From Coriobacteriia bacterium (GTDB taxonomy: Bacteria > Actinomycetota > Coriobacteriia > Anaerosomatales > Anaerosomataceae): DNA of 64,000 nt. Location: positions 306,254-370,253 of the forward strand of contig JAUSBK010000001.1 in the NCBI GenBank assembly GCA_030652115.1, read 5' to 3'. Position numbers and translations under genes: made by a program. The notes below the pieces were generated by a model. The model did not search any database. It saw only the letters and a program-made list of their open reading frames with translations, and was not told the origin of the DNA. This document shows positions 1 through 62,383 of this stretch, piece after piece. Numbering within the stretch: position 1 is the stretch's first letter; each line of letters starts with the position of its first letter.

Positions 1-2
1 TC

Positions 3-140
3 GCGCACATCGCTTCCTCGGATTCGCACTCGCTCGAGGAGATGGGGCGCCGGACGGCGACCCTCGAGATGTCCGAGCTGTCCTTCGAGGGCCTCGCATC
101 TGCCCTCCGCGTGGCCAGGTCGGTTGAGTCGCCCGGATAG
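3..140 (+). CDS. PHP-domain metal-dependent phosphoesterase, C-terminal fragment
   Basis: Only the last 45 codons are present; the gene runs in from the left edge and ends at TAG 138-140. The segment contains ASSDSHSLEEMG followed by a short beta-alpha tail. A D-x-H-S motif followed by an E-x-x-G turn is typical of the last metal-binding strand of PHP (polymerase and histidinol phosphatase) phosphoesterases. Substrate cannot be judged from the fragment. The reading frame was chosen because it alone gives this motif and protein-like composition; the other two forward frames are arginine/proline-rich and look like shadows. Confidence 0.55.
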   Translation, partial: AHIASSDSHSLEEMGRRTATLEMSELSFEGLASALRVARSVESPG

Positions 141-277: not shown

Positions 278-1945
278 ATGTCACGGAACCGGTTGCGCGG
301 ACTCGCTGCAACGGTGTCGGCAATCATCCTTCTCTCAGGACTGGTGATCGTCCCAGGGGTGTCGGCGACAGAACCCTACTCGATCGAGCAGAAAGTCACC
401 GAGGCCGGTACCTCGCACTACGGCATCAGTACGGCGGTGTCGGGAACGACAGCCATCGTGGGCTCGTACTGGGCGCCGCAGGCGGCGTACGTGTACGTCC
501 GGTCCGGCGACACCTGGACAAAGCAGCAGACCATCACGCACACCGAGGGGTCGGCGTCGGACATGTTCGGGTTTGCGGTGGACATCGACGGCGACACCCT
601 CGTCATCGGCGCCCCTCAGCACGAGCACAGCGCGCTTCTCTCAGCGGGAGCCGCGTACGTGTACGTGCGTTCCGGCTCTACGTGGTCGCTCCAGCAGAAG
701 CTGGTCGCCACCGACGCGGGAACCTATGACTTTTTCGGCCACTCGGTGTCACTCCAAGGCGACACGGTCGTGATCGGTGCGGCTGCGGCCGAAACGACCG
801 AGGGTGACAACAGAGGGGCTGCGTACGTCTTCACCCGCTCCGGCTCGACGTGGACGCAGACGCAGAAGCTCACCGCCGCCGGAACGACCGCCCCGGGGCT
901 CGCGGATGACAGCTTCGGTCACTCGGTGGCGCTTTCCGGTGACCGGATCGCGGTCGGGGCACCGTATGCCGACCCGAATGGGGAGGCCTTCGCTGGACGC
1001 GTCTACACGTATGCGCGCTCGGGCGGAACGTGGTCGTTTGACGAGCACATCCAGGCTGCGACGCCCGTGACGTATCACTACGTAGGGCGGGATATCGCGC
1101 TCGACGGTGCGACACTCCTGGTTGGTGCGTTTGGCGGTCCAGGAGCGGCGAACATGTATGTGGACACTGCCTCTGGTTGGACGCTCCAGCAGACGCTGCT
1201 CCAACCGGATTACACACCGGGAAGCTACTTCGGTTACACCGTGGACCTCTACGGCGATACGGCAGTGATCGACGCTCAGTACGCGGACGGCGGTTCGGTT
1301 CAGGATGCCGGCGCCGTGTACGTATTCACCCGGAGCGGGTCGACCTGGACGTACCTCAAGACGCTCTACGCTGCCGACGGAGCGCTCTCTGACAGGCTCG
1401 GCGCATGCGCCGTCGGTCCCGGTGTGGTGACGGCCGGCGCTGAGTGGGGGGCCTCGGCCACCGGCAAGGCGTACTTCTTCAGCACTCCCACGCCGCCCGT
1501 GACGCTCGCCCCCGTCTACCGCTTCTACAACTTCACCAACAACACGCACTTCTTCACCTCGTCGCTCGACGAGGCGAACTCGGTCATCCTGAACTACCCG
1601 AAGGTTTTCCGCTACGAGGGCATCTGCTATTACACCAACCCCGCTAACAACACGCAGCCCCTCTACCGCTTCTACAACCGTGTGAGCGCGAGCCACTTCT
1701 ATACTGCGTCGCTCGACGAGGCGAACCACATCCTGGCCACCTGGCCGCACATCTTCACCCTTGACGGCCAGACCTACGCCGTGAACCCGGCGCCGGTCCC
1801 CAACAGCGTTCCGGTCTACCGGTTCTTCAACCTCACAAACGGCAGCCACTTCTACACGTCAAGCGCGGAAGAGGCCGACATGGTGATCGCCACCTGGCCA
1901 ACGATCTACAGCTACGAGGGCCCGGCGTTCTGGATCGGGCAGTAA
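278..1945 (+). CDS. Secreted FG-GAP propeller protein with DUF5648-type repeats (array member 1)
   Basis: A 555-aa exported protein. Residues 1-30 form a Sec signal peptide (basic start, hydrophobic core, VSA before the likely cut). Residues about 35-400 hold successive blades of the form FG.SV.....DT.V.GAP....G.AYV(F/Y).R.G..W, matching FG-GAP_2-type propeller repeats. Residues about 413, 461 and 513 begin three repeats with RF(Y/F)N, HF(Y/F)T and W/P-x-(I/V)-(F/Y) anchors, as in DUF5648. FG-GAP propellers often bind ligands or other surface proteins; the function here is unknown. Stop is TAA and member 2 begins 37 bp later, so co-transcription is likely. No transpeptidase motif or membrane anchor follows the repeats, so the repeats may provide surface attachment (inference). 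Confidence 0.9.
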   Translation: MSRNRLRGLAATVSAIILLSGLVIVPGVSATEPYSIEQKVTEAGTSHYGISTAVSGTTAIVGSYWAPQAAYVYVRSGDTWTKQQTITHTEGSASDMFGFAVDIDGDTLVIGAPQHEHSALLSAGAAYVYVRSGSTWSLQQKLVATDAGTYDFFGHSVSLQGDTVVIGAAAAETTEGDNRGAAYVFTRSGSTWTQTQKLTAAGTTAPGLADDSFGHSVALSGDRIAVGAPYADPNGEAFAGRVYTYARSGGTWSFDEHIQAATPVTYHYVGRDIALDGATLLVGAFGGPGAANMYVDTASGWTLQQTLLQPDYTPGSYFGYTVDLYGDTAVIDAQYADGGSVQDAGAVYVFTRSGSTWTYLKTLYAADGALSDRLGACAVGPGVVTAGAEWGASATGKAYFFSTPTPPVTLAPVYRFYNFTNNTHFFTSSLDEANSVILNYPKVFRYEGICYYTNPANNTQPLYRFYNRVSASHFYTASLDEANHILATWPHIFTLDGQTYAVNPAPVPNSVPVYRFFNLTNGSHFYTSSAEEADMVIATWPTIYSYEGPAFWIGQ

Positions 1946-1982
1946 GGGGACGGGCGCACAGCCTGCGCGAGAGGAGCCGACG

Positions 1983-3989
1983 ATGAAGAGGCGCTGGACA
2001 ACTCGAATTGCGGCAATCGTGATCGGGGCGCTGATGCTTGCCACGATGGCGCCGGTTGCGGTGCCGTCAGCGGCGGCGAGCGCTGCGCCGTTCGCGATAC
2101 AGCAGGCGCGGGTGTTTTCGGGCATCACGCCGAGCCTCGACGGCTACGCCACCTCGGTGGCGATCTCCGGGAACCTTATGGCGGTGGGCTCGCCGGACCT
2201 GAGCAACGACCAGGGCGCTGTCTACGTGTACAAGCGAACAGGGACGACCTGGTCGTGGGTTGAGACGCTCTATGCAGCCGGAGTCTCCGACGGCGACGAG
2301 TTCGGCAAGTGCGTGGCGATGGACGGCAACCGCCTCGTGGTGGGTGCTCCGCACCACTGGACCGGAGGCGGTCCGGTGGGCGTGGCCTTCGTGTACACCT
2401 GGAACGGCACGACCTTCGGCACCCCCGTGCAACTGTCCGGCGAGACGATCGCCGCTGACGAGCGCTACGGCGAGGCGGTTGCCATCGACGGGGACACCCT
2501 CGTGGTGGGGGCGCCGCTAGACGGCACCGCCGGGTCGGCGTGGCCGTACCGGTGGAACGGCGCATCATGGATCAACCAGGGCACGCTCAACGGCTCGGCT
2601 GGCGACGCGCTGGGCTGGTCTGTCGCGATCGCCGGTGACACGATTCTCGCGAGCGCCACCGGCCGCGACAATCCGGTGGGGCCCCTTGTGGACGCCGGCA
2701 GCTTCATGGTCTTCACGCGTACCGGCGCCGCATGGTCGTACCAGCAGCGTCTGTATGCCCCCGACCCCAAGGCAGGCGCCTTCTTCGGATCGCCCATCGA
2801 CATGTCCGGCTCGGGGTACACCGCGCTGATTGGCGCGCCGAACTGGGATGCGGGCGCCGGCGACGATAACACCGGACGTGCGTACATGTACGCGCGCGGG
2901 CTCACGAGTTGGGCACACAGCCAGACGCTCGCGAACCCCGGCACCAACTCGCCCGATGGCGACTACTTCGGCACGGGCGTGGCGCTGGACGGGGACCGTC
3001 TCGCGTTGGTGGGTGCGTTCTGGGACGACTCGCATCTGGGCGCCGGCTACTACTACACCAGGACCAGCGGCGACTGGGGCATGAGCCAGAAGATCAGCAT
3101 GAGCGGTACGAGCCCTGCGGTGGCGCTGTTCGGTCGCTCGGTGGACATGGACAACGGCACCACGGTTGTAGGGGCTCCCACAAGCGGCAATGCGGGTCCG
3201 CCGCTCGTGTCGATTCCCGGGTCGGCCTTCGTGTACTCCACCCGCGCGACGATCACGGGCATCTGCCGCAACGCGCAGACGGGTCTTCCGATGGCGGGTG
3301 TTGAGGTGCAGGCGCACTACCTAGACGCGTGGGGTGATGCTTCACCGGCCTCGGAGTTCGTGGTGTCCGGCGCCGACGGCAGGTATACGCTCACTGTTGA
3401 CTCGGGACGCGTCTACGTCAACTTCCTTCCTGGAGCCCTGTATGAGGCTGGGTGGTACAACGACGTCGAGTCGTGGCCAGAGGCGTCACCGATCGACGTC
3501 TGGGCCGGCAACACGTACAACGTGGACTTCACGATCTACCCGAAGTTCTCGGTTTTCCGCTTCTTCAACGTCACCAACAACACGCACTTCTTCACCGACT
3601 CGCTGCAGGAGAAGAACATGGTGCTCGCCACGTGGCCCGCGATCTTCCGCTACGAGGGGATCGCGTACACCACGAATCCCGCGCTCAACCTGCAGCCGCT
3701 CTATCGCTTCTACAACCGGGCGAGCAAGAGCCACTTCTACACGGCGTCACTCGATGAAGCGAATCACGTGATTGCCACCTGGTCGCACATCTTCACCTAT
3801 GACGGGCCGACGTACTCCGTCTCTCCGATCGCGGGTGCGGGCATGTCGCCGGTCTACCGCTTCTACAACGTGCGCAACGGGAGCCACTTCTACACGGCCT
3901 CTGCGCAGGAAGCCGACATGGTGATCGCAACGTGGCCTGACGTGTACCGCTTCGAAGGGCCAGCGTTCTGGGTGGGCGGCTCGTTCTAG
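1983..3989 (+). CDS. Secreted FG-GAP propeller with carboxypeptidase-regulatory-like insert and DUF5648-type repeats (array member 2)
   Basis: A 668-aa paralogue of its neighbours with a signal peptide (MKRRWTTR start, cleavage near AAASA). The propeller spans about residues 35-415. At about 421-520 a domain starting TITGICRNAQTGLPMAGVEV and containing GADGRYTLTVDSG matches the carboxypeptidase regulatory-like/CNA-B beta-sandwich pattern and is absent from members 1, 3, 5 and 6. Three DUF5648-type repeats begin near 523, 572 and 623. ATG at 1983 follows GAGAGGAGCCGACG. The gene lies 37 bp after member 1 and 30 bp before member 3. The insert looks like a modular spacer or extra binding domain between propeller and tail. 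Confidence 0.9.
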   Translation: MKRRWTTRIAAIVIGALMLATMAPVAVPSAAASAAPFAIQQARVFSGITPSLDGYATSVAISGNLMAVGSPDLSNDQGAVYVYKRTGTTWSWVETLYAAGVSDGDEFGKCVAMDGNRLVVGAPHHWTGGGPVGVAFVYTWNGTTFGTPVQLSGETIAADERYGEAVAIDGDTLVVGAPLDGTAGSAWPYRWNGASWINQGTLNGSAGDALGWSVAIAGDTILASATGRDNPVGPLVDAGSFMVFTRTGAAWSYQQRLYAPDPKAGAFFGSPIDMSGSGYTALIGAPNWDAGAGDDNTGRAYMYARGLTSWAHSQTLANPGTNSPDGDYFGTGVALDGDRLALVGAFWDDSHLGAGYYYTRTSGDWGMSQKISMSGTSPAVALFGRSVDMDNGTTVVGAPTSGNAGPPLVSIPGSAFVYSTRATITGICRNAQTGLPMAGVEVQAHYLDAWGDASPASEFVVSGADGRYTLTVDSGRVYVNFLPGALYEAGWYNDVESWPEASPIDVWAGNTYNVDFTIYPKFSVFRFFNVTNNTHFFTDSLQEKNMVLATWPAIFRYEGIAYTTNPALNLQPLYRFYNRASKSHFYTASLDEANHVIATWSHIFTYDGPTYSVSPIAGAGMSPVYRFYNVRNGSHFYTASAQEADMVIATWPDVYRFEGPAFWVGGSF

Positions 3990-4019
3990 GCCGAGGCAGC
4001 GAGCTCGAGGGGAGCTGTG

Positions 4020-5684
4020 ATGAGGATGCGAAGGGTCCGGGCGCTTGCTGTGACTGCGGCGCTGCTGACTACAGTGGTCGTGCTTACGGCACCAGCGGCG
4101 GCCTACGGTGCGTTCGCCGAGCAGGTGGCGAGACTGCACGCGACCGATGGTGCGCAGAACGACTGGTTCGGGAACAACGTGGACATCGACGGCGACACGG
4201 TCGTGGTCGGCGCACCAGGGGATGACTCGCAGCGTGGCTCGGCCTACGTATACATCCGAACGGCCGGCGGCTGGGTCTTCCAGCAGAAGCTCACGGCGCC
4301 GGCGCTTGCGGCTGGAGACATGTACGGCGCGGATGTGGCCGTTTCGGGCGACTTCATCGTCGTGGGTGCGCCGTACCGTACCGCGGGTACCGAGATCCTG
4401 GCGGGTCGAATCTACGTCTACCGCCGGGTGGCCGGCGTGTGGGGTCCCGTGTATGACACGGCAGCCCCCGTTCCACATGCCGGTGACTCATTCGGCTGGT
4501 CGGTGGACATCGAGGGCAGCACGATCGTCGTGGGCGTGCCCTACTTCGATAGCGTGTACGGTCCCGAGCATGGACTCGCCTACGTCTACCGATGGAACGG
4601 CTCGGCATGGTCGTCCTTCCAGTACCTCGAGGACACCGACCCTGGTGAGGACAACATGCTTGGCCGATCGGTGAAGATCTCCGGCACCACCATCGTTTGC
4701 GGTTCGCCCGGCGAGGATTCCTTGGCGGGCAGTGTGGTCGTGTTCGGCTGGAACGGCGCCGTGTGGACGTTCAGGCAGAAACTCTACGTTTCGGGCGGGG
4801 CGGCGGGAGACCAGTTCGGCAACTCCGTCGATGTCTCAGGCAACACCATCGTCGCCGGTGCGCCAGGCCGCGACCTGATGACGGGAATAGACGCGGGGGC
4901 GGCCTACGCCTTCGTGAACCCGGGCGCTGCGTGGGCGTGGCAGGCATCGTTCGTGTCTCCCGATCCGAGCGAGTACAAGGGCTTCGGCTCAGGCGTCGGC
5001 ATCGACGGCGACACGCTTGCCGTCGGCGAATGGCAAGGCTCGGCGGGTGCTGGTGCGGCGCATTTCTACAGGCGAAGCGGCACACTCTGGCCACGCGTGC
5101 AGTCCACGGACATGTCGGCGGCCAATCCGGCGGTGCGCATGTTCGGCTGCTCGACTGCAGTGAGCAAGGGCACCATCGTCGTCGGCTCGTACCTGGCGAG
5201 CACCGCCACGGTGACCGAGCCGGGCGGCGCCTTCATCTACTCACATCTTGAGCCGGTCTATCGCTTCTATAACCCGGGTGCGGGAACGCACTTCTACACT
5301 CCCTCGGCAACAGAACGCGACCATGTGCTGGCCACCTGGCCGAACGTCTTCTCGTACGAGGGGGTCGTGTACAAGACGAATCCCGAGAACAACCCGCAGC
5401 CGCTCTACCGCTTCTTTAACCACACGAACGGCAGTCACTTCTACACGGCGTCGCTCGTGGAGGCGGACCATGTGATCGCCACGTGGCCGGGCATCTTCAC
5501 GTACGAGGGGCAGACGTACGCGGTCACCCCGTGGCCGTGCGCCGGGCCGACCGTGTACCGCTTCTACAACCTGAAGAATGGCAGTCACTTCTACACGGCC
5601 TCTGCTGAAGAGGCCGACATGGTTATCGCCACGTGGCCAACGGTGTACCGTTACGAGGGACCGGTATTCTGGCTCGGGCAGTAG
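4020..5684 (+). CDS. Secreted FG-GAP propeller protein with DUF5648-type repeats (array member 3)
   Basis: A 554-aa protein; ATG 4020 is preferred over the GTG directly before it because GAGGGGAG lies 6-8 bp upstream. The signal peptide ends near APAAAYG. Seven blades can be counted by their (F/Y/L)G turn: DWFG, DMYG, DSFG, NMLG, DQFG, KGFG and RMFG, each followed by a D/S-G-x-T-(I/L)-V-x-G strand, which fits a complete seven-bladed propeller. Three DUF5648-type repeats begin near residues 412, 460 and 511. It lacks the beta-sandwich insert of members 2 and 4. It is the clearest member for counting blades. Function unknown. Confidence 0.9.
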   Translation: MRMRRVRALAVTAALLTTVVVLTAPAAAYGAFAEQVARLHATDGAQNDWFGNNVDIDGDTVVVGAPGDDSQRGSAYVYIRTAGGWVFQQKLTAPALAAGDMYGADVAVSGDFIVVGAPYRTAGTEILAGRIYVYRRVAGVWGPVYDTAAPVPHAGDSFGWSVDIEGSTIVVGVPYFDSVYGPEHGLAYVYRWNGSAWSSFQYLEDTDPGEDNMLGRSVKISGTTIVCGSPGEDSLAGSVVVFGWNGAVWTFRQKLYVSGGAAGDQFGNSVDVSGNTIVAGAPGRDLMTGIDAGAAYAFVNPGAAWAWQASFVSPDPSEYKGFGSGVGIDGDTLAVGEWQGSAGAGAAHFYRRSGTLWPRVQSTDMSAANPAVRMFGCSTAVSKGTIVVGSYLASTATVTEPGGAFIYSHLEPVYRFYNPGAGTHFYTPSATERDHVLATWPNVFSYEGVVYKTNPENNPQPLYRFFNHTNGSHFYTASLVEADHVIATWPGIFTYEGQTYAVTPWPCAGPTVYRFYNLKNGSHFYTASAEEADMVIATWPTVYRYEGPVFWLGQ

Positions 5685-5722
5685 GGGGTGCGAGCGGGGA
5701 GCTCGCGCGGAGGGAGTCGTAC

Positions 5723-7744
5723 ATGAGACGTCGTTGGGTGACCCGGTGTGCAGCGATCGCGACCGGAGCGCTGGTGCTTGCCACGGTGGTGCCGCTTGCG
5801 GTGCCGACCGCGATGGCCGGCTCGGCTCCATTCGCGGTCGATGAGGACATCATCTACGCGCAGACTCCGGTGACGGATGAGAGATTCGGCTCCGCGGTGG
5901 CGATCGACGGCGACACCCTCGTGGTGGGCGTGCCCGAGTACGACACCTTGGCCGGTCCGCAGAATGTCGGCCGGGTGGATGTCTTCGTGCGGTCCGGGAC
6001 CGACTGGGTGAAGCAGACGTCGCTGTACGCTTCAGCGCCCGGTGACGGTGACAAATTCGGCACCTCGGTGGCGATCTCTGGTGACCGGATCGTGGTCGGG
6101 GCACCTTTCTACTACGGGTCGCATGGCGAATCGGGCGCCGCGTATGTCTTCACGCGTACCGGGACGGCGTGGTCGGCGGCGGACATGCTGCCTGATGAGT
6201 TCGCTCAGGAAGGCGATCAGATCGGCCAGTCCGTTGACATCGAGGGCACCACTATCGTGGTCGGCTGCCCCGGGGACAGCAGCGGGCGCGGAGCGGTGCG
6301 TCCGATCTACTGGAACGGGAGCGACTGGGACTCCGGCGGTGGCGTGCATCTGCTCGACCCGTCGGGCATGGCGGGAGACCGCCTCGGCACGTGCGTGTCG
6401 CTCTCGGGCAACACGGTGCTTGCATCGGCCGGTGGAGATGACGTGGGAACGGTGGCGGCGATCGTGGACGCGGGCAGCGTGCTGTCGTTCACGCGCAGCG
6501 GCACGACGTGGTCGTTCGAGCAGAAGTGGCAGGCGCCCACGCCGGTGGCCGACGAGCAGTTCGGCGGCCCCATCGACCTGCAGGCAGGCGGCTATGTGGC
6601 CGTCATCGGCTCGCCCGCGCATGACGTAGGTGCCGAGGTGGATAAGGGCATCGCGTACGTGTACGCGCGTGGCACGAGCGGTTGGGTGCTCACCGCCACG
6701 CTCGATAACCCCGGCCCCAACTCGCCGGACGGCGACTGGTTCGGCTCGGCGGTAGCCTTCGACGGTCATAACCTGATCCTCATCGGCGCCTTCTGGGACG
6801 ACCTCCACACCGGCGCGGCGTACTACTTCCAGTACCGCGAGGGCGAGTGGGTGATGGCGCAGAAGGTCACGCCGGACGCATACCCGTGTTGCGCGCTCTT
6901 TGGCGATTCGGCGGCGCTCGACGGCGGGATCGCGATGATCGGCGCCACGCTCGCCTCTACGGGTTGAGCGGATCAAACGGGCGCAGTTTACGCCTATAAC
7001 AGCAACGCGACGATCACCGGCACCTGCTACGACGCGCTAACGGGACTCCCGCTCGCGGGCGTTGAGGTCTCGGCATACTACCCGGATGGCTGGGGCGATC
7101 CGGAGCTTGAGCAGTACGTGACGACCGGCGCTGACGGCAGGTACACGCTCACCGTCGACTCAGGCGAGTATTACCTCGGCACGATGGGGCCAAGCTCTCT
7201 CTACCAGGCTGGCTGGTACAACAAGGCCAGCGGATGGACAGATGCCGACCCCTGGACGTTCTGGGCGGGCACCAGCACTACGATCAACTTCACCATCTAC
7301 CGGAAGGCGCCGGTCTTCCGGTTCTTCAACAAGCTCAACATGACGCATTTCTTCACCGACTCGATCGCCGAGCGCGACCACGTGATCGCGACCTGGCCCG
7401 GTGTGTACGACTACGAGGGCATCGCCTACTACACAAGTCCGAATACCGACCTGCAGCCGCTGTACCGTTTCTACAACACGCGATCGAACAGTCACTTCTA
7501 CACCGCGTCGGCCGACGAGCGGAGTCGTGTGATCGCAACGTGGCCGACCATCTTCAACTACGACGGCCCCACCTATCGCGTCTCGGCGGGACCGGACTAC
7601 GGCAGGTCTCCTGTCTACCGCTTCTACAACGTGCGAAATGGCAGCCACTTCTACACGGCGAGTCTCGATGAAGCGAACCACGTGATCGTCACGTGGCCGG
7701 ACGTGTACCAGTTCGAGGGCCCGGCATTCTGGATCGGACAGTAG
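5723..7744 (+). pseudogene. FG-GAP propeller/regulatory-like/DUF5648-type protein interrupted by an in-frame TGA (array member 4)
   Basis: ATG 5723 starts a signal peptide (MRRRWVTR, near-identical to member 2). The same frame stays open to TAG 7742-7744 except for one TGA at 6965-6967. Upstream are about 414 residues covering almost the whole propeller; downstream, without a frame change, come GAVYAY, the regulatory-like domain (from about residue 428, with GADGRYTLTVDSG) and three DUF5648-type repeats (about 529, 578, 630). Member 2 gives the full-length template, so this is one gene with one nonsense codon, not two genes. No start with a ribosome site lies close after the stop. It may be a genuine pseudogene, a sequencing error (CGA or TGG to TGA), or rarely read through. 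Confidence 0.85.
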
Positions 7745-7767
7745 CGCTGCTGCAGCCGCAGATCGAC

Positions 7768-7800
7768 GTGGGCGCCCCTCCGGGGGCGCCCACTTTCGTT
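7768..7800 (+). terminator. Rho-independent-like terminator after array member 4
   Basis: An 11-bp perfect stem (GTGGGCGCCCC at 7768-7778, complement at 7783-7793) with a TCCG tetraloop is followed by TTTCGTT. It separates array members 1-4 from members 5-6 and suggests two transcription units. Confidence 0.75.
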
Positions 7801-7864
7801 ACGTCTGCCTCCGCCCTGGGAACCCACGTCTCTAGGGAGGGGTTTGAGGGGGGAGGTGGCAGTG

Positions 7865-9529
7865 ATGCCGCGCATTCGTTTGTGTGCATCGGCGCTCGTT
7901 GTGGTGCTTGCATTTGCGCTGGTGGTGGGTCCACTACCCGAGGCGGGCGCTGCGGTGGAGACGCCGCCTCCTGTTCAGTACACGGCCCGCGTGTTCGCCG
8001 CTGACAGCCCGACCGACGAGGACTTCGGCTACTCCGTGGCGATCGACGGGAACACTGCGGTGGTGGGCTCGCCAGACTACAACGGGAAGGGCGCCGTCTT
8101 CGTCTATGAGTATGTGAGCGGACTGTGGACGTTCAGCGAGGAGCTGCCGGCGGATTCGGGCGTCGGGGACCGTTTCGGCCACTCGGTGGACATCGATGGT
8201 GATCTCATCGTCGTGGGCATGCCGTACGGGAACTCGAGCGCGGCGGACGATACGGGTGCGGCCATCGTGTACGAGCGCGGTTTGGCGGGGTGGGAGTACC
8301 TGACCGAACTAGCTCCCGAGCCCAGCTCGGTCGGCGACCTCTTCGGCTGGTCGGTTGCCATGTCGGGGAACCGGGCAGTCGTGGGCTCGCCCAAGGACGA
8401 CCAGATGGCCACCGATTCAGGTGCGATCTACATCTTCACGAGGACCGAACCCGCCTATGTCAAGTACATGTCCTCGGCGGCCGAGGCGGGCGCCGAGTAC
8501 GGCACGTCGGTCGACCTTGATGGCGACTACATCATCGTGGGCGCTCCCCGGGACGACACCGCCGCAGGCGCGGATGCGGGCGCGGTCCACTTCTACCACT
8601 GGGACGGCGCGTTCTGGGACTACCAGGGGATCCGCTTCGGCTCGAGTGACGATGCGGGTGACCGGTTCGGCTACGCGGTATCGATCTCCGGCGATCGCGC
8701 GCTGGCGGGGGCATTCCTGGACGATGTCGCCACGGCGGAGGGTGCGGGGTCGACGGACGTATTCAACCGTTCGGGCACGAACTGGTTCTGCACCCAGACA
8801 CTGGTCTCGCCAGCGCCGAACGCCGGCGACAACTTCGGCATGGCCGTGTCGGTGGAGGGTACGTTCGCACTCGTGGGCGCGCCATGGGACGACAGCTACG
8901 CGGGTTCGGTGCACGTCTATCAATGCCTGGGTGACACCTGGACGCTCATGCGGAAGATGACGCCGCTGCCGGGTGACAGCCTTGCTGGATTCTCGGTCGC
9001 GGCGTCATCGCAGGGCCGCGGTATCGTCGGCAACGTCACGGGCACGGGCGCCCAGCCGGCCTCGGGCACAGCGTGCATGCTCGCACACCTCGAGCCGGTC
9101 TACCGCTTCTACAACGCGGGCGCGGGCACGCACTTCTTCACCAACTCGGCCGAGGAGCGCGACCACGTGATCGCCACCTGGCCGACCGTGTTCACCTACG
9201 AGGGTCCGGCGTACAACACGAACCCGCACAACAACACGCAGCCGCTCTACCGTTTCTACAAGCCGAGCAGCTCGAGTCACTTCTACACGGCATCGCTCGA
9301 CGAAGCGAACCACGTCCTTGCAACGTGGCCGCACATCTACAGCTACGATGGCCCGACGTACGCGGTCACGCCGTACGCCGAGGCGGGCACGCTGCCGGTC
9401 TACCGCTTCTACAACGTCCGCAATGGCAGCCACTTCTACACGGCGAGTCTCGATGAGGCGAACCACGTGATCGCCACGTGGCCGACGGTCTACCACTACG
9501 AGGGACCGGCGTTCTGGCTCGGGCAGTAG
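7865..9529 (+). CDS. Secreted FG-GAP propeller protein with DUF5648-type repeats (array member 5)
   Basis: A 554-aa exported protein. ATG 7865 (MPRIRLCAS) is chosen because GGGGGGAGGT lies 7-12 bp upstream; an in-frame earlier start at 7844 would bury that site. The signal peptide ends near PEAGA. The propeller has blades marked by EDFGYSV, DRFGHSV, DLFGWSV, AEYGTSV, DRFGYAV and DNFGMAV. DUF5648-type repeats begin near residues 411, 459 and 511. The 5' leader and first residues closely resemble those of member 6, so the two are probably the youngest duplicates. It follows the terminator at 7768 and so probably has its own promoter, although I see no convincing -35/-10 pair. Confidence 0.9.
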   Translation: MPRIRLCASALVVVLAFALVVGPLPEAGAAVETPPPVQYTARVFAADSPTDEDFGYSVAIDGNTAVVGSPDYNGKGAVFVYEYVSGLWTFSEELPADSGVGDRFGHSVDIDGDLIVVGMPYGNSSAADDTGAAIVYERGLAGWEYLTELAPEPSSVGDLFGWSVAMSGNRAVVGSPKDDQMATDSGAIYIFTRTEPAYVKYMSSAAEAGAEYGTSVDLDGDYIIVGAPRDDTAAGADAGAVHFYHWDGAFWDYQGIRFGSSDDAGDRFGYAVSISGDRALAGAFLDDVATAEGAGSTDVFNRSGTNWFCTQTLVSPAPNAGDNFGMAVSVEGTFALVGAPWDDSYAGSVHVYQCLGDTWTLMRKMTPLPGDSLAGFSVAASSQGRGIVGNVTGTGAQPASGTACMLAHLEPVYRFYNAGAGTHFFTNSAEERDHVIATWPTVFTYEGPAYNTNPHNNTQPLYRFYKPSSSSHFYTASLDEANHVLATWPHIYSYDGPTYAVTPYAEAGTLPVYRFYNVRNGSHFYTASLDEANHVIATWPTVYHYEGPAFWLGQ

Positions 9530-9552
9530 AGTTCGAGGGGGAGGTTGCAGCG

Positions 9553-11214
9553 ATGCCACATGTTCGTTCGCGTGCCCTAGTGCTCGTGGTTGTACTGGCG
9601 GTCTCGTCGTTCGCGGTGCCGTTGCCGGCGGCTGGAGTGTTGGACACGCCTGCGCCGGTGCAGTGCACTGGGACGGTATGGCCTGCAGGCGGTGTGGTCG
9701 ACGACCAGTTCGGTTACTCGGTGGCTATCGACGGCAACACGGCCGTGGTGGGAGCGCCTGCCTACGAAGACAGGGGCGCTGCGTTCGTCTACGAGTACAA
9801 CGGGACCAACTGGGTCTTCGCGCAGCGGATTCCGGCCGACCCGGCGGTCGGAGACGGCTTTGGGACAGCGGTCGACATAGACGGGGACTACATCGTGGTC
9901 GGCGCCCCATGGGACACTGTCTCCGCCGTTCAGCGCGGATCTGCGGTCGTCTTCCACCGTGGGCCGGGCGGATGGGCGTACTACGCGGAGCTTGTTCCGA
10001 CCACGGCTGCTGCAGGCGACCGGTTCGGCTTCGCGGTGTCGATCTACGGGACCACCGTCGTGGTTGGCGCGCCGCGGGATGACTCCCTGGCCGCGGACGC
10101 GGGCGCGATCTACATCTTCAAGGAGGGCAGCTCCACACTCAAGCGACTCATGGCCAGTTCCGAGGCCGGCGCCGAGTTCGGCAGGGCGGTGGACGTGTAC
10201 GGGAACTATCTGGTCGCGGGCGCTCCCTTCGAGGACAACGCCGGCGGTACGAACGCAGGATCCGCGCTCATGTACTACGGGGACGGCGCGACCCCGTGGA
10301 CGGCGACGGGCTACGTATACGCGCACGATCCACAAGCCAACGCCGGCTTCGGCTTCTCGGTAGCCACCAACGGCGCGAACGCCATGGTGGGCGCATACAC
10401 CTACGATGTCGGCACTCAGGCCGCTGCGGGTGCGGTCGACGCGTTCACGCGTTCCTCGAGCGGTCTGGGCGCCACGTGGCCCTGGTCGCAGACGCTTACT
10501 TCGCCGCAGCCGAATGCGAACGACAACTTCGGCCAGGCGGTCTCGGTGAGCAGTTCAGTGGCGGTCGTGGGCGCGCCGTGGGATGACGGCATGGCCGGCT
10601 CGGCGCACTTCTACGAGAAGACGGCCGGTGGCTGGACCCTTACGCGGAAGATTCCGGGCGCCGGATGGTTCGGCTACTCGGTAGCGGCGTCGGCAGAGGG
10701 GCGCTTCGTCGTGGGCGCGATGGTCGGCGACGGCGCCGCCATGGACTCCGGCGTGGCGTACTTCTACGCCATCTGGCACCCGGTCTACCGCTTCTACAAC
10801 GCGGGCGCGGGCACGCACTTCTTCACGAGTTCGGCCGAGGAGCGCGCCCATGTGATCGCCACGTGGCCGACGATCTTCGCCTACGAGGGCGTGAGTTACT
10901 CGGTGAACCCGTACAACAACAAGGAGCCGCTCTACCGCTTCTACAAGCCGAGCAGCTCGAGTCACTTCTACACCGCCTCGGAAGAGGAGCGCGACCACGT
11001 GATCGCCACGTGGCCCACCATCTACCAGTACGACGGTCCCACCTACGAAGTCTCGCCGTCGCCCGAGGCGGCCAAGCTACCGGTGTACCGCTTCTACAAT
11101 CTCCAGAACGGCAGCCACTTCTACACAGCGAGTCTCGATGAGGCGAACCACGTGATCGCGACGTGGCCGACGGTCTACCGCTACGAGGGGCCGGCGTTCT
11201 GGCTTGGCCAGTAG
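9553..11214 (+). CDS. Secreted FG-GAP propeller protein with DUF5648-type repeats (array member 6)
   Basis: A 553-aa exported protein starting at ATG 9553 (MPHVRSRA) behind GGGGGAGGTTGCAGCG; an in-frame start at 9478 would overlap member 5 and is rejected. The signal peptide ends near LPAAG. The propeller spans about residues 40-400 and DUF5648-type repeats begin near 408, 458 and 510. The first repeat is nearly identical at DNA level to that of member 5 (around 9100 and 10780), including the KPSSSSHFYTAS block that follows, which suggests recent duplication or gene conversion. The gap to member 5 is 23 bp, so they are probably co-transcribed. It closes the array. Confidence 0.9.
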   Translation: MPHVRSRALVLVVVLAVSSFAVPLPAAGVLDTPAPVQCTGTVWPAGGVVDDQFGYSVAIDGNTAVVGAPAYEDRGAAFVYEYNGTNWVFAQRIPADPAVGDGFGTAVDIDGDYIVVGAPWDTVSAVQRGSAVVFHRGPGGWAYYAELVPTTAAAGDRFGFAVSIYGTTVVVGAPRDDSLAADAGAIYIFKEGSSTLKRLMASSEAGAEFGRAVDVYGNYLVAGAPFEDNAGGTNAGSALMYYGDGATPWTATGYVYAHDPQANAGFGFSVATNGANAMVGAYTYDVGTQAAAGAVDAFTRSSSGLGATWPWSQTLTSPQPNANDNFGQAVSVSSSVAVVGAPWDDGMAGSAHFYEKTAGGWTLTRKIPGAGWFGYSVAASAEGRFVVGAMVGDGAAMDSGVAYFYAIWHPVYRFYNAGAGTHFFTSSAEERAHVIATWPTIFAYEGVSYSVNPYNNKEPLYRFYKPSSSSHFYTASEEERDHVIATWPTIYQYDGPTYEVSPSPEAAKLPVYRFYNLQNGSHFYTASLDEANHVIATWPTVYRYEGPAFWLGQ

Positions 11215-11252: not shown

Positions 11253-12560
11253 TCACTCCACGGCCCGGAGGCCTTTCAGGTCTGCGGGCCGTGGTATGCC
11301 GAAGGCCCGGTGGCCGGTGATGCGGTCGGCAAGGAACGCCGAGCGGTCGGCTGCATCGAGCGCGAGCGGGAGCACGTCGGTGCCGCGTACCACGCCGAGC
11401 GAGCCTGCGGCGGCGGCCGTTTCGCCGTAGGCGGTCACCCCGTCGGCGCCTGCCACGCCGCCCGCGATCGTGAGCGGAACCGCGCCTCCGCCGTGGTAGA
11501 GCGGCCCTGCCGATGGCGTCTGGTGGTCCGGGCACACGATCACCACGATCTCGCCACGCTCGGCGAGCGGCACGAGCGGCGCGAGCGCGCGGTCCACCGC
11601 CGCGATGATCTCCGCCTTGCGGGCGGGGTTCTTGTGGTGCCCGGCCTGGTCGGTGCGCTTGGTGTGCAGGTGCACGAACTCGTACCCCTCGGCAAGCAGC
11701 GCGAGCGTGGCCTCTACGCGCACGGCCACGTCAGCCTCGGCATCGCTCACCGTGCCAAACTCGCGGTGGTCGAGCCCGATGGCGGCAGCGAGGCCGTGGT
11801 AGAGCGGTCCCGAGCCGAGGCTGACCCCGCGCATGCCGAAGCGGGCCGGAAACGACGTGTAGCGTGCGGGCGCGCCCGCCCACTTGGCGAGCATCGCGTC
11901 GAGCGGACGCCCGGCGAGCACGGTGCGCGAGTGGCGGATCCAGGCGTTCACCGCACACGCGGTGCGCGCGGCCGCCTTGGCGTCGGGCGCCTCTTCGAGC
12001 GGCAGCACCTCGAGGACTGCGGTGCCCGCATGCAGCGGATCGGCGTCGCTCACGAAGTGCGAGAGCGCCGGCCCGTCGGTGGGGTTGAGGAAGAGCAGAC
12101 CCTGCAGGGCACCGGTGTGCACGAAGTGGGCCTGCACGCTGCCGTACTCGAAGTCGAGCGAGATGCCGTCGAGTCCGGCCTCGCCCTCGCGCGGGTCGGG
12201 CCGCTCCTCGATCCACAGCACACCCTCGCGCTCGGTCACGCGCGCGAGGTTGGCGCGCAGCACCACTTCGCCGGGAGAAGGCGGCAGGTCCTCGCCGAGC
12301 GCTTCGAGCAGTCCGCGCCCGGGGAACTCGGCTTCCGTGTAGCCGAAGAGCGCGAAGTGCGCCTGGTGCGAGCTGGGCGCAAGGCCCGGGCCCACGGGGT
12401 AGAGGAGGCCGCTTCGGCCGAGGGAGGCGAGCGCGTCGAGGTTGGGCGTCTCGGCGGCCTCGATCGGGGTGCGTCCGTCGAGCTCGGGCTGCGGGCGGTC
12501 GCCCGCGCCGTCGGGCACCACCATCACGATGGGGCGCCGTACGTCCGCGCTCTCGCCCAT
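11253..12560 (-). CDS. apgM: Cofactor-independent phosphoglycerate mutase, ApgM type
   Basis: A 435-aa protein of the alkaline-phosphatase superfamily, predicted to interconvert 2- and 3-phosphoglycerate in glycolysis in the cytoplasm. The N-terminus has VMVVPDGAGDRP, the metal-site aspartate strand of this fold, followed by TPIEAAETPNLDALA, typical of the archaeal-type ApgM family. Further metal-site segments are SSHQAHFALFGY and, near the C-terminus, HLHTKRTDQAGHH and VCPDHQTP. ATG 12560 is preferred over upstream in-frame starts because GGAGGGGACGG precedes it directly. It is convergent with the propeller array and divergent from the methyltransferase gene. Confidence 0.85.
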   Translation of the reverse strand: MGESADVRRPIVMVVPDGAGDRPQPELDGRTPIEAAETPNLDALASLGRSGLLYPVGPGLAPSSHQAHFALFGYTEAEFPGRGLLEALGEDLPPSPGEVVLRANLARVTEREGVLWIEERPDPREGEAGLDGISLDFEYGSVQAHFVHTGALQGLLFLNPTDGPALSHFVSDADPLHAGTAVLEVLPLEEAPDAKAAARTACAVNAWIRHSRTVLAGRPLDAMLAKWAGAPARYTSFPARFGMRGVSLGSGPLYHGLAAAIGLDHREFGTVSDAEADVAVRVEATLALLAEGYEFVHLHTKRTDQAGHHKNPARKAEIIAAVDRALAPLVPLAERGEIVVIVCPDHQTPSAGPLYHGGGAVPLTIAGGVAGADGVTAYGETAAAAGSLGVVRGTDVLPLALDAADRSAFLADRITGHRAFGIPRPADLKGLRAVE

Positions 12561-12650
12561 CCGTCCCCTCCGTCCGAAAACGCGCGTGCGCGTGAGCACG
12601 CCCTCGGGCTAGTATGTCACAGGGGATGCACGCAACCGGGGGAGGCGGCT

Positions 12651-53789: not shown

Positions 53790-56700
53790 TCAGTTGGTGA
53801 GCCGTGCGATGTCCTCGGTGGTCCATCTGCCGGGCTCGAGGTACATGTCGCCCGGCGCGATGAATGCCTTCTGGCCACCTGTGCCCGGATCGTAGATGAT
53901 GACCTGCTGCTCGCGCTGATCGAAGCAGGTGCCGCCGGGTGCGTCGTTCCAGTACTTCTGCGTCTTCACCCACACGAATATCCGAACGTCTCCAACAGGC
54001 ACGCCCAGGCGATCGATGTCGAACGTGCGGATGCTGGTGTTGGCCTCTGCATCGTCCGTGTACGAGAACCACTGCGCGCGGTTCGTGTAGTAGACCTCGC
54101 CGGTCGTCTTGTCCACCACGTCGATGCCGTCACAGCGCACCGCGGTGTCTTGAACGCTGGAGCCACCGATGACGATCGGAATGGCGAAGCTCGTCGGGAT
54201 GGCCTTGACGACGCTGCTCGCCGAGTCGTACGGGTGGTTCCAGTCCCAATCGTCGACCACCTGGAAGTCGTCGAGCGACTCCTTCCACGTGAGGACCTCG
54301 GCACCCTGGCCGAGAACCAGCCATTGGTCCTCGTCGGAGAACGCCTCCTTGACGTCCTGGATGCCGCTGTAGATCGACTTGCCGAGGTTGATGACCGGGT
54401 CGTACTCCTTGTACACGCTCACCGCCGTCTTGAGCGCCGACTTCCACCACGCCTGGCTCGGGGCGTCGGTGGTCTTCGCCATCGCCGTCGGTAGTTTCTT
54501 GCCGGAGTGGCCGGTGAGGTCGTCGCCCGAGACCGGGAACTCGATCTCGCCCTTGGTCACGTGCGTCTCGTACGTGCCACCCCACGTGGTGACCTGGACG
54601 CGGTTGAGGTCGCGGCTGCCGTCCCAGTACTGCGCGCCGACTCGCACCGCGTAGTTGCCGTACCAGACGTAGATCGACTGTCCGCCCACATCGAGGAACC
54701 CGGGCCAGGAGGCCTTGAGCATCCACGACGTGTACCCCTCGGTGGCATCGCGCTGTGCGAGCTCACCCCGGTCGGGCACGAGCTCGATCATGACCGAGGC
54801 CAGCTCGCCACCGGAGAGTGCGATGGGCTCGGTCACGGTGAGGCCCGCTCCGGTGGCTGTGATCACGTACGCGCCACTCGGCTTCACGGTGAGCTCCCCG
54901 GCGTCGAAGTGCCCCTCGGCGTCGGTCGTGAGACTCGCCACTGTCTCGCCCTTGTTGTTGGCGATCGTGACCGGCGCGCCTGCCACGCCCGTGCCGAGCC
55001 GGTCGATCACGCGGCCGGTGAGCTGCGCTGTCGTGGCCTCCTTCATCGTCACGGTCCCGGCGGTCTCCTCGCCGAGTCGTACCTCGAAGTCGACGGGCGC
55101 GAGGCCCTGGTAGCCACCCTTCTTGAACGCGATGCGATACGTGCCGTACGGCATCTCGAGCACGAGATCGCCGTTCTCATCGGTGATGTCTGACCGGTCG
55201 TAGCCGACCAGGTAGGTCTGCACGCCCGAGAGCGCCACGCCGGCCTCGTCGGTCACGTGGACCCTGAGCGTCCCGTGGTTGTCCAGCCGGATGCCCACTG
55301 AGGCGATCGGTTTCGTGCGCGTTGTCTCCACGGTGGTACTCGCGGGGTTGAAGCCCTCCTTGGTGGCAGTGATCGTGCCGCTGCCGAATTCGACCTCCTC
55401 GATCACGAAGCACCCGCTTGCGTCGGTCAGCACGGTCCTGCCGCCAAAACTCACCTCAACGCCGGCGAGCCCGCCCGTCCACCAGCCGAGGTCGGCCATC
55501 CCCGAGGCGTTCGAGACGCGCCCCTGTACCACGCCCTTCTGGATGACCTGCACGATGCTCGCGGCGGTGTCGTTGTCGGCCGTGTACTGCTCGCTCGTGG
55601 TGGTGAGTGCGTACGAGATGTCGACTGTCTCGGCGGTGAGGTCGGCCGGTACGTCCCACACCTTGGCGAAGGTGCTGGTCTCGCCCGTCTTGATGGTTCC
55701 GATGTCGAGCGTGCCGATCGCCTCTCCGTCCACTGCTACCTCGAGCGTGATGCTCTTCGCGTCCTGGCTGCCCCGGTTCACGACCGCACCGGTGAGCAGG
55801 CAAGGCGAGCCACAGACGGCCTTCTTCGGATTGCTCTTGAGGCTGGCTAGATCGAACGTCACGTCCGCGAGGATGGGCTGCCCGCCGTCGAGCACGATCG
55901 GGTCGCCCGCAGGACCGTCCTCGGAGATCGGCTGGAGGACGAAGCGGGCCTGCTCCGCGGGTGTTCCGCCGAGTTCCTGGTGGCGCGTCTTGTCCACGAA
56001 GAGGATTGCCGGGCCGCTTTCGAGCTGCACCAGCTCCAGGTCGCGGAGCTCGGCGGTGAGCGCCGGCATACCCTCGCTGGATCGGCTGGCCCACGTGTCC
56101 GTGACCTCGCCGGTGCGCAGGTCTACGAGCGAGATCCGCTGGTTGAGGGCATCGGCGGTCTCCCAGTACACGAGCACGCGGCCGCCCTCGGCCACTATGC
56201 CCAGTGCCGACGGTGTCGCGCCACCGAACTCCTCGTTGCCGGCGAGGAGCACGTCGCGCGTGACTCCCATCGTGTCGGGATCGATGATCGCGAAGCGGGA
56301 CTCGTACTCGTTGCTGGCGGCGAAGAAACGGATGTACGACACGGCCAGCAATCCCGTATCGGCGTCGAAGGCGAGGTCGAACGATCCGTCCGACACCTTC
56401 TCGGGCGGATCGGTGATGACGGAGCTTCGTACGCGCATAGGCGGGGTGCCGGGAGCGATCTCCATGATCGCAACCGCCGGGCGTGGGCCGGTCTGCGTGC
56501 CGAGACTCTGCGGCGAGGTCTCTTGCGTCGCCATCCAGATCCGCTCGCCGTCGGTGGCGAGCGCGCAGGTGTCGCCGTGCGGGGTGAGATAGGTGGGCAC
56601 ACCCTCCGGCTGCATGTCGAGACCGAACCGGGTGATGTATACCGCGCTGTTTGAGCGGAACGACTCGTAGATCGCATCGTCCACGCGGACCACGTCCATC

Positions 56701-57320
56701 GGGTCGTACGACTCCCAGGTTCCGGCCGGCACCCACCGTGTGCGACCGGCGCCCAGCTGCGGCGCGAGGACCTGCGTGCCGTCGGCGAGATAGTGCTCCC
56801 ACTGCACCTGGTGTGCGGTGCCTCGCGCGTAGAAGAGCAGGTAGGAACCGTCGTCGAGCGTGACGAGCGCGGGGTCGGCGTTCTGGATGCCGGTAACCTT
56901 GTAGGGCGCGAGCCCGCCCTGCGTCTCGAAGTCCGTCTCGTCATACGCGGGGTGGCCGAGTGCGTTGACGCTGAGCGTGGCGCCCGCGTCGCTTACCTCG
57001 GTGACCTCGAGCGTGGCATCGGGCAGCGAATCCGCGTTGAGATCGGCTTCAGCGGACACGCCCTCGGTGAGCACGTAGCTCGTGGGCGAGGAGGAGATCA
57101 CGAACTCCGCCGAGGAGCCGACCACCCGCACCAACTCGGCGGTGTGCGTCTCACCGGCGTAGTCGAACTCGGCGGATTCGCCCACCTCGAGCGTGAGCGT
57201 CCCCTCCGCCTCGCCGCCGTCGCCTCCGCCATCGTCTTCCGAGCATGACGACGGCCCGCATCCCGACAGCGCGAGCATCACAGCGAGCACGACCAACAGA
57301 AGCGACCGAAGTCGTCTCAC
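53790..57320 (-). CDS. Very large surface lipoprotein with CARDB and carboxypeptidase-regulatory-like domains
   Basis: A 1176-aa protein. GTG 57320 has GGGGGAGGAACC upstream; the lipoprotein signal ends LALSGC. After a glycine/glutamate linker come a beta domain (residues about 40-110), a propeller-like region (about 130-480, with LVTLDDGSYLLFYARG and VRVDDAIYESFRSN), a CARDB-type domain (about 500-600, VNRGSQDAKSITLEVAVDGEAIG), then three regulatory-like beta-sandwiches (VQGRVSNASGMADLGW; LRVHVTDEAGVALSGV; LTGRVIDRLGTGVAGAPV). The last about 300 residues are unassigned. It is an adhesin- or receptor-like surface protein, 103 bp upstream of the zinc-ribbon/membrane-protein operon. Confidence 0.82.
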   Translation of the reverse strand: MRRLRSLLLVVLAVMLALSGCGPSSCSEDDGGGDGGEAEGTLTLEVGESAEFDYAGETHTAELVRVVGSSAEFVISSSPTSYVLTEGVSAEADLNADSLPDATLEVTEVSDAGATLSVNALGHPAYDETDFETQGGLAPYKVTGIQNADPALVTLDDGSYLLFYARGTAHQVQWEHYLADGTQVLAPQLGAGRTRWVPAGTWESYDPMDVVRVDDAIYESFRSNSAVYITRFGLDMQPEGVPTYLTPHGDTCALATDGERIWMATQETSPQSLGTQTGPRPAVAIMEIAPGTPPMRVRSSVITDPPEKVSDGSFDLAFDADTGLLAVSYIRFFAASNEYESRFAIIDPDTMGVTRDVLLAGNEEFGGATPSALGIVAEGGRVLVYWETADALNQRISLVDLRTGEVTDTWASRSSEGMPALTAELRDLELVQLESGPAILFVDKTRHQELGGTPAEQARFVLQPISEDGPAGDPIVLDGGQPILADVTFDLASLKSNPKKAVCGSPCLLTGAVVNRGSQDAKSITLEVAVDGEAIGTLDIGTIKTGETSTFAKVWDVPADLTAETVDISYALTTTSEQYTADNDTAASIVQVIQKGVVQGRVSNASGMADLGWWTGGLAGVEVSFGGRTVLTDASGCFVIEEVEFGSGTITATKEGFNPASTTVETTRTKPIASVGIRLDNHGTLRVHVTDEAGVALSGVQTYLVGYDRSDITDENGDLVLEMPYGTYRIAFKKGGYQGLAPVDFEVRLGEETAGTVTMKEATTAQLTGRVIDRLGTGVAGAPVTIANNKGETVASLTTDAEGHFDAGELTVKPSGAYVITATGAGLTVTEPIALSGGELASVMIELVPDRGELAQRDATEGYTSWMLKASWPGFLDVGGQSIYVWYGNYAVRVGAQYWDGSRDLNRVQVTTWGGTYETHVTKGEIEFPVSGDDLTGHSGKKLPTAMAKTTDAPSQAWWKSALKTAVSVYKEYDPVINLGKSIYSGIQDVKEAFSDEDQWLVLGQGAEVLTWKESLDDFQVVDDWDWNHPYDSASSVVKAIPTSFAIPIVIGGSSVQDTAVRCDGIDVVDKTTGEVYYTNRAQWFSYTDDAEANTSIRTFDIDRLGVPVGDVRIFVWVKTQKYWNDAPGGTCFDQREQQVIIYDPGTGGQKAFIAPGDMYLEPGRWTTEDIARLTN

Positions 57321-57383
57321 GGTTCCTCCCCCCGAGGACTCTCTCAGACGATGGTACCCCAGCGGCACCCACCTCCGACGCGA

Positions 57384-60517: not shown

Positions 60518-62383
60518 CTACCGCGGCGTGATGCGGACGGTGTGGACCGCCGTGTCCGCCCTCGGCGAGTAGGTGAGGAGCTGCCCCTCGAGGCGCACCT
60601 CGCCGTCGGGCGCGTCGATCACCGCTCCGCCCGGGTACTGGCTCGCCGGCACGAAGAACTCGGCCGGGGCCGGAATCGCCGGATCGCGCCGGAAGCGGAA
60701 CTCGAACGCCTTCGAGCGGATAGCGAAGCTCATCGAGAGCGGCTCGCCGGGGACCGCCATCGCGTACGGGCGCACCGCGGCGGCCAGCGCGCGGCCTCCG
60801 TCATCGGGCGAGCCGTCACCCCGCTGCTGGTCGCGGCTGAAGATCGAGAGGTCCTCGTCGTTCCACAAGTCGCCGCGCTCGTTGGTGTTGTCCGCCGTGT
60901 AGTTCCACAGCGTGAAGCTCGCGCAGTTGGCCTCGAGCGCGCGCATCGTGGCGTCGAGCGCGCGGGTCTGCTTTGAGAAGTCGCCGGTGGTGTACGCCCG
61001 CTTGCCGTCCATATCGAACGGGATCCCGCACTCGCCGATCACCGCAGGGATGCCGCCCAACTCGACTCGGCCACGGGCCACGAGCGCGCCGATCTGCCGC
61101 GCGAACGACGCAGCGACGCGCCTCTTCCCGAACGCCACCTTCGCGGTGGTCATGTCCGCGCCGAGCCACGGCGTGTGCGACTTGCGGAGCAGGGTCATCC
61201 CGTCGTACCAGTGCGGCGCGTAGGCCGCGTTCTCGATCCCGGCCGGCGTGAGCGCCGCGCCGCTCTCCGGCTGCCCCTCGAGGAAGATGACGGCGTGTGG
61301 CATGCGTTCGCGGATCGCCGAGGCGAACCTGCGAGCGAACGGCAGATAGAAGTCGCGGTTGAACTCGACCGGATGGCCGTCGATCTGCGTGAAGTAGTCG
61401 GGCTTGAGGACGCGGGGTGTGCTGCCCTCGGCATCCCACACGCCGTGTGCGCGCCAGACGCATTCGGCGCCCGGCAGCCACGCGCTGCGACCGTGGGGGT
61501 TCAGCTCCACCTCGCCGGTGCGCTTGAAGCCGGTGAGACCCAACTCGTACGTGCCCACGCGCTGGGGGATCCCGCTGCCGAGCGCGAGCGACTGCAGCGG
61601 CGTGGGCGAGGGGCCGAGCTTGAGCGGGAACGTCACCCCGGCAAGGTCGTGTGCGCCGATGAGTCCGGTGCTCGGCTCGTTCAGCGTGTCGAAGCCGATC
61701 ACGTTCGGCAGGTCGCCCAGGCGTTCGGCAAGGTGCGCCACGGCTGCGATGTAGTGACCCTGCAGGTACTCCTGCGCGGGCACGCCCGCGATCCGCATGT
61801 CGGGCGCGAACACATCTCCGCCGAAGAAGAGCGTCCACATCGTGAGATTGGCGAGCTTGCCGTAGTTGGTGGGCCAGATCATGCGCGGGAACGGGTCGCC
61901 GTGTTCCTGGTGCGTGAGGGCGCCGCCGGTCTCGGCAAAGGCGGCCATATCGAGGCCCGCGGCCTCGAGCGTCCAGCCGGGCGCACCGTCGCCGCCGGTG
62001 AAGCGGCTCCACACGTCCTGGTGCGGGTCGATGAAGACGCTGATGTCGTACTCGGCGGCCTTCTCCACGATCGCCCGGAAGTAGGTGAGGTATGCCTCGT
62101 CGTACTGGCCGGGACCGGTGTGCTCGATCGCCTCCCAGGTGGTGAGCAGGCGCAGGAACGTGAAGCCCCAGTGCCGGAGCCTGCCGAAGTGCTCGTCGGC
62201 CTCCTCGAGCGGGAAGGGCCGGCCGACGAACGAGACATCGCGGTGATCGAAGAAGCCCTCACGCCGCCAGGTGGCGCCGTCGGGGGAGAACGGCACCTTG
62301 GAGCTGCCGCCCAGGTTCACGCCGCGCAGGATGAGCGTGCGGCCGTGCTCGTCGGCGAAGCGGTCACCCTGGATGCGGATCAC
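60518..62383 (-). CDS. Glycoside hydrolase family 5 (endoglycoceramidase-like)
   Basis: A 621-aa hydrolase with a GH5 TIM barrel (residues about 1-500) and a C-terminal beta domain. It opens with RILRG-like LILRGVNLGGSSKVP. The acid/base Glu is in FDTLNEPSTG (about residue 235) and the likely nucleophile in VIGECGIPFD (about residue 450). The layout resembles the endoglycoceramidase/sterylglucosidase-type GH5 subfamilies with a C-terminal domain. There is no signal peptide, so the enzyme is predicted cytoplasmic, acting on an imported or internal glycoside or glycolipid. ATG 62383 is used. It converges with the upstream membrane-protein gene. Confidence 0.85.
   Translation of the reverse strand: MIRIQGDRFADEHGRTLILRGVNLGGSSKVPFSPDGATWRREGFFDHRDVSFVGRPFPLEEADEHFGRLRHWGFTFLRLLTTWEAIEHTGPGQYDEAYLTYFRAIVEKAAEYDISVFIDPHQDVWSRFTGGDGAPGWTLEAAGLDMAAFAETGGALTHQEHGDPFPRMIWPTNYGKLANLTMWTLFFGGDVFAPDMRIAGVPAQEYLQGHYIAAVAHLAERLGDLPNVIGFDTLNEPSTGLIGAHDLAGVTFPLKLGPSPTPLQSLALGSGIPQRVGTYELGLTGFKRTGEVELNPHGRSAWLPGAECVWRAHGVWDAEGSTPRVLKPDYFTQIDGHPVEFNRDFYLPFARRFASAIRERMPHAVIFLEGQPESGAALTPAGIENAAYAPHWYDGMTLLRKSHTPWLGADMTTAKVAFGKRRVAASFARQIGALVARGRVELGGIPAVIGECGIPFDMDGKRAYTTGDFSKQTRALDATMRALEANCASFTLWNYTADNTNERGDLWNDEDLSIFSRDQQRGDGSPDDGGRALAAAVRPYAMAVPGEPLSMSFAIRSKAFEFRFRRDPAIPAPAEFFVPASQYPGGAVIDAPDGEVRLEGQLLTYSPRADTAVHTVRITPR

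Follow-up and report, generated by a model that had tools for sequence, protein, structure and literature searches.

How six adjacent genes that join one kind of beta-propeller to one kind of C-terminal module came to lie side by side in a Coriobacteriia genome, and what that module does for the proteins that end in it, are the questions raised by the locus analysed here. The locus lies at one end of the window, that is, the whole stretch of 64,000 nucleotides that was studied (contig C1:306254-370253 of a 2.38-Mb genome), to which all positions below refer unless a contig or another region is named.

Six propeller genes end in the same module

The genes, which we call g1 to g6, all lie on one strand and span positions 278-11214. 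Together with their flanks they are organised as follows:

1-140, plus strand: left flank, end of a PHP-domain gene (whole gene at contig C1:305674-306390)
278-1945, plus strand: g1, signal peptide, FG-GAP_2 propeller, DUF5648 (module at 1511-1942)
1983-3989, plus strand: g2, propeller, carboxypeptidase-regulatory-like insert (3246-3548), DUF5648 from 3549
4020-5684, plus strand: g3, propeller, DUF5648 from 5253
5723-7744, plus strand: g4, propeller, insert at 7007-7309, DUF5648 from 7310; in-frame TGA at 6965-6967
7768-7793, plus strand: terminator-like hairpin between g4 and g5, then TTTCGTT (read by eye)
7865-9529, plus strand: g5, propeller, DUF5648 from 9095; sister of g6 in both trees
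9553-11214, plus strand: g6, propeller, DUF5648 from 10780; module model with mean pLDDT 94.2
11253-12599, minus strand: right flank, apgM-type phosphoglycerate mutase gene

A hydrophobic, signal-like N-terminus was found in all six products, and each gave strong matches both to FG-GAP_2 (PF14312; E 1e-42 to 1e-66, 143-221 bits against a curated cut-off of 23) and to DUF5648 (PF18885; E 1e-30 to 1e-50, 106-171 bits against a curated cut-off of 25). The proteins end with DUF5648, exactly or to within a few residues, and a Pfam search of g1-g6 found no anchor family besides it. The architecture described in the first-pass annotation, in which six paralogues share a signal peptide, a propeller and three C-terminal repeats, is therefore confirmed except that g4 is not intact. 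Its in-frame TGA falls between most of the propeller on one side and the insert and DUF5648 on the other, so that the upstream product is propeller alone and the downstream part, which has the insert and DUF5648, lacks a signal peptide; the gene is a pseudogene or else the assembly has a wrong base here. The same annotation counted 18 DUF5648-type repeats, which is correct for sub-repeats of about 48 residues, but the Pfam domain is the three-repeat unit, so that the array holds six domains. The extra regulatory-like domain reported for two members is the insert of g2 and g4, which comprises 101 residues upstream of DUF5648; a similar insert accompanies the same type of propeller in a related genome, G024 (CarboxypepD_reg match at E 6e-4, below Pfam's own cut-off). 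The hairpin between g4 and g5 suggests that the array is divided into two transcription units.

Elsewhere in the window, the minus strand codes for a GH5-type glycoside hydrolase (60518-62383) and for a large protein with carboxypeptidase-regulatory-like and CARDB domains (53790-57368). Ahead of the window on contig C1, a GGDEF diguanylate cyclase gene (L031:9293-10849) lies upstream of the prephenate dehydratase and PHP genes and of the array.

The propellers resemble those of integrins

An AlphaFold model of g3 (mean pLDDT 75.6) found its best Foldseek matches among the integrin-alpha propellers (E 1e-17), and a profile of the array proteins also retrieved integrins by sequence (E 6e-14). 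The seven-bladed FG-GAP-type fold proposed earlier thus agrees with a predicted model, as distinct from a solved structure; the comparison with integrins applies to the propeller only.

Occupancy of the site varies among relatives

All 34 FG-GAP_2 matches of the genome fall inside the array, and no FG-GAP_2 propeller was found in four genomes of the same genus (G001-G004). In five genomes of the family (G002, G005, G012, G013 and G015) the site is empty, the PHP-domain and apgM genes being adjacent with about 12-66 bases between aligned ends, while in three genomes of another genus (G006, G020 and G023) it holds one propeller gene, whose C-terminal part consists of three CWB2 repeats. These three genes form a clade of their own in the propeller tree (100/99). 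Copy number at the locus, which the first-pass annotation had proposed to compare across related genomes, does vary, with 0, 1 or 6 propeller genes at the site.

A site that is empty in five family genomes, and in three others contains a propeller gene from a different clade, could be an integration hotspot into which the array arrived as a block by horizontal transfer. We regard this origin as possible but doubtful, as the GC content of the array genes (0.64-0.67) equals that of their surroundings (0.667), the DUF5648 modules of the array are nearest to modules of the home genome, and loss of an ancestral gene in most relatives would fit equally. It would be compatible with the exchange of anchors that we propose below.

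The array is divergent and shows signs of module shuffling

The propellers of g5 and g6 are 50% identical; all other pairs reach 30-47%, and their agreement at synonymous sites is what chance would give, or close to it. The DUF5648 modules are 60-81% identical across the six genes. Because the propellers are mostly so far apart, and their synonymous sites so close to chance, the array is an old or fast-diverging set and not a fresh duplication. The earlier statement that two late members are nearly identical in parts was too strong: g5 and g6 reach 81% identity in DUF5648, and their longest exact run of DNA is 47 nt, within the module.

Phylogenetic analysis placed the adjacent g5 and g6 as sisters in both the propeller and the DUF5648 trees, and likewise g2 and g4. 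The six array propellers do not form one clade in the propeller tree (AU p 4.5e-8), in which individual deep branches are weakly supported, and g2 and g4 fall beside genes of G024 and G441, with which they have the insert in common. Since the six propellers are not one clade and g2 and g4 group with these genes of other genomes, the array draws on several propeller lineages, which were brought together or kept, and did not expand from a single gene. Nor do the data favour the origin that had been suggested from the alternation of architectures, in which a two-gene unit was duplicated and genes were then lost: neither tree places g1 and g3 as sisters, and the insert of g2 and g4 occurs with the same propeller type in G024 and G441, in addition to the result of the AU test.

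The clearest departure from a common history is seen in g1. A TolB-like propeller gene on contig C8 has a module 94% (protein) and about 91.7% (DNA) identical to that of g1, as against 60-69% protein identity between the g1 module and those of g2-g6. The DNA match (1496-1944) covers the module span only, starting 15 bases before the module and ending at the stop codon, and codon identity between the two modules is 0.83 as against 0.68 in a region-specific shuffle (p 0.0002). The module of g1 has thus been exchanged, and the incongruence between propeller and repeat histories for which the first-pass annotation had recommended separate trees is established for this gene. Since copy number varies and the g1 module matches a distant gene up to the module edge, module shuffling is supported.

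A first comparison of codon identity had hinted at homogenisation of the module over all six genes; the region-specific shuffle leaves most pairs weak or not significant. Homogenisation stands for g4/g5, for g5/g6 and for g1 with distant genes (p per pair, uncorrected for the number of pairs). Evidence for recombination can accordingly be called strong in the case of g1 and modest in those of g4/g5 and g5/g6; most of the remaining pairs give weak evidence or none.

The array might also be an ordinary tandem family, whose six members arose locally from a single propeller-DUF5648 ancestor and in which the module has no special role. Such a history would account for the pairing of g5 with g6 and of g2 with g4 in both trees, and an AU test on the DUF5648 protein tree leaves one clade of six unrejected (p 0.22). 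It conflicts, however, with the failure of the propellers to form one clade and with the match of the g1 module to a distant gene over the module only, at about 91% DNA identity. We consider it improbable, and already disfavoured by these results.

DUF5648 is a predicted folded module on many secreted proteins

The genome as a whole contains 44 DUF5648 matches on about 30 unrelated secreted proteins, in which the partners of the module include multicopper oxidase, subtilase, M23 and CHAP domains together with DUF5122, PSII_BNR and TolB-like propellers (TolB-like being assigned by eye). The module is mostly C-terminal; a few proteins, in L036 and L044, have it at the N-terminus. L040:2945-4386 and L034:4351-5076 encode short secreted proteins, two of them in tandem, that are barely more than a signal peptide and DUF5648.

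The structural model of the g6 module (146 residues, window 10774-11211; mean pLDDT 94.2) consists of three beta-beta-alpha-beta sub-domains. The repeats keep their order from protein to protein, with 54-66% identity between repeats at the same position and 45-52% between those at different positions. No solved structure resembling DUF5648 was found by sequence or by Foldseek at E 0.001. VIA-align aligned 120 residues of the g6 model with positions 352-483 of the Aegerolysin-L pore 9uj0, at Z 6.6 and rmsd 4.3, a range in which a match may reflect a mere common arrangement; a receptor-binding fold shared with pore-forming proteins is a possible, weak reading of these models.

In other bacteria, DUF5648 is the C-terminal domain of the antibacterial BSAP toxins of Bacteroidales, which target O-antigen glycan (PMC12853789), and an auxiliary domain of GH70 enzymes, for which three beta-beta-alpha-beta sub-domains have also been described (PMC11299179). 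It has been proposed to bind glycans there (PMC12853789, PMC11299179), and a GH25 endolysin carries a fused DUF5648 (PMC13379245).

A mostly C-terminal domain common to some 30 secreted proteins of one genome could in principle act as a sorting or export signal for dedicated machinery, in the manner of PEP-CTERM or type IX sorting domains, and not as a binding module. This seems very unlikely to us, given that the domain is confidently predicted as folded over 146 residues, that the protein stops with it and has neither a hydrophobic nor a charged tail, that it is sometimes N-terminal or stand-alone, and that in other bacteria it serves as the receptor-binding domain of a toxin.

DUF5648 and CWB2 exclude one another

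We compared the distribution of DUF5648 with that of CWB2 (PF04122) across 69 genomes of the order (this one and 68 related), which are mostly drafts and mutually kin. At least ten CWB2 matches are present in 46 of the 69, each of which has at most one DUF5648 match, whereas the eight genomes with at least three DUF5648 matches all lack CWB2; none of the 69 is rich in both. The exclusion is significant when kinship is ignored (Fisher p 3.6e-7), and the eight DUF5648-rich genomes represent three taxonomic groups and hence at most three independent cases. Within the window's genus, CWB2 is absent from five of five genomes and DUF5648 has 3-44 matches, and in two other families DUF5648 has 15 (G038), 21 (G440) and 10 (G442) matches, again with no CWB2 in any of the three. 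As CWB2 is found nowhere in the genome of the array, the array proteins are not CWB2-anchored members, and SLH anchors (PF00395) were absent from all 41 genomes tested.

One module replaces the other on two unrelated families of carriers. Eleven propeller genes of relatives carry three CWB2 repeats (13 if two with fewer repeats are included), where the array propellers carry DUF5648 instead. Among the subtilases, three CWB2 repeats follow the protease in 18 genes of relatives, and the G000 gene has DUF5648; in G002, G003 and G038, subtilase and DUF5648 matches lie in open frames that agree in contig and length (read from tables). Some subtilases of the same genus (G001 C6, G004 C175) have neither module. 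Judged from these comparisons, DUF5648 stands where relatives have CWB2, which is the main point and one that the first-pass annotation missed; the surface role that it had proposed for the family gains support from the comparison with CWB2. None of the results speaks for the antigenic diversity that it had also considered.

A model for display on the cell surface

We think it likely that DUF5648 displaced CWB2 as a non-covalent surface anchor and that the array displays different propellers on it. The array products would be secreted, two-part surface proteins, in which the N-terminal seven-bladed FG-GAP_2 propeller forms the exposed, outward-facing and fast-diverging working part and probably binds ligands, as integrin alpha heads do. 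The C-terminal, pseudo-threefold beta/alpha DUF5648 would hold the protein non-covalently on the producer's own surface, presumably by binding a glycan of its wall or envelope. CWB2, the three-repeat wall-polymer anchor of most relatives, would then have been displaced across the surface proteome in the window's genus and apparently in two other groups. A more far-reaching version, on which we are evenly divided, is that CWB2 gave way to the unrelated DUF5648 protein family by protein family in three groups of the order, following a change of envelope polymer, and that DUF5648 is a general self-surface anchor for a different polymer.

An anchor of the CWB2 or DUF5648 sort is not strictly needed, since three genomes (G010, G452 and G454) have neither, G010 also lacking SLH. 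The existence of such genomes fits a different idea, in which DUF5648 binds glycans of external substrates, such as biofilm polysaccharide or other cells, rather than the own wall, and CWB2 was lost separately. The domain in BSAPs and GH70 enzymes is indeed believed to recognise O-antigen of other cells or alpha-glucans, and may in those proteins be directed at foreign glycans rather than the producer's own. Under this idea, though, both the complementarity with CWB2 in three groups and the presence of DUF5648 in the place of CWB2 in two families of carriers would be coincidence, and we hold it to be unlikely.

If DUF5648 is the anchor, a domain to which Pfam's name assigns no function would acquire a concrete and testable role in these bacteria from its exclusion of CWB2. 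The swap would also be a natural experiment in how dozens of surface proteins of one cell are given a new anchor, and with DUF5648 the surface proteomes of uncultured Coriobacteriia could be predicted.

Comparison with known systems

The array propellers share the seven-bladed FG-GAP fold with the beta-propeller of integrin alpha-subunits; identity in the best structural matches is about 14-18%, and a ligand role is suggested by analogy alone. With BSAP toxins and GH70 enzymes, the array proteins have in common the same Pfam domain and its division into three sub-domains, each with beta strands and a helix, as seen in the g6 model. There, however, DUF5648 is a receptor-binding or auxiliary part within one protein family, whereas here it is found on about 30 different secreted proteins of a single genome of Coriobacteriia type. 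A parallel in organisation is provided by the Cwp/SlpA proteins of Clostridioides difficile, which are likewise secreted and combine a variable functional part with an anchor of three non-identical repeats; all three CWB2 repeats are required for anchoring, and the ligand is the polymer PSII (PMC4973711). In the relatives, CWB2 is carried by members of the same propeller and subtilase families. The array differs from all CWB2-anchored proteins in using DUF5648, which may, by analogy, work as CWB2 does.
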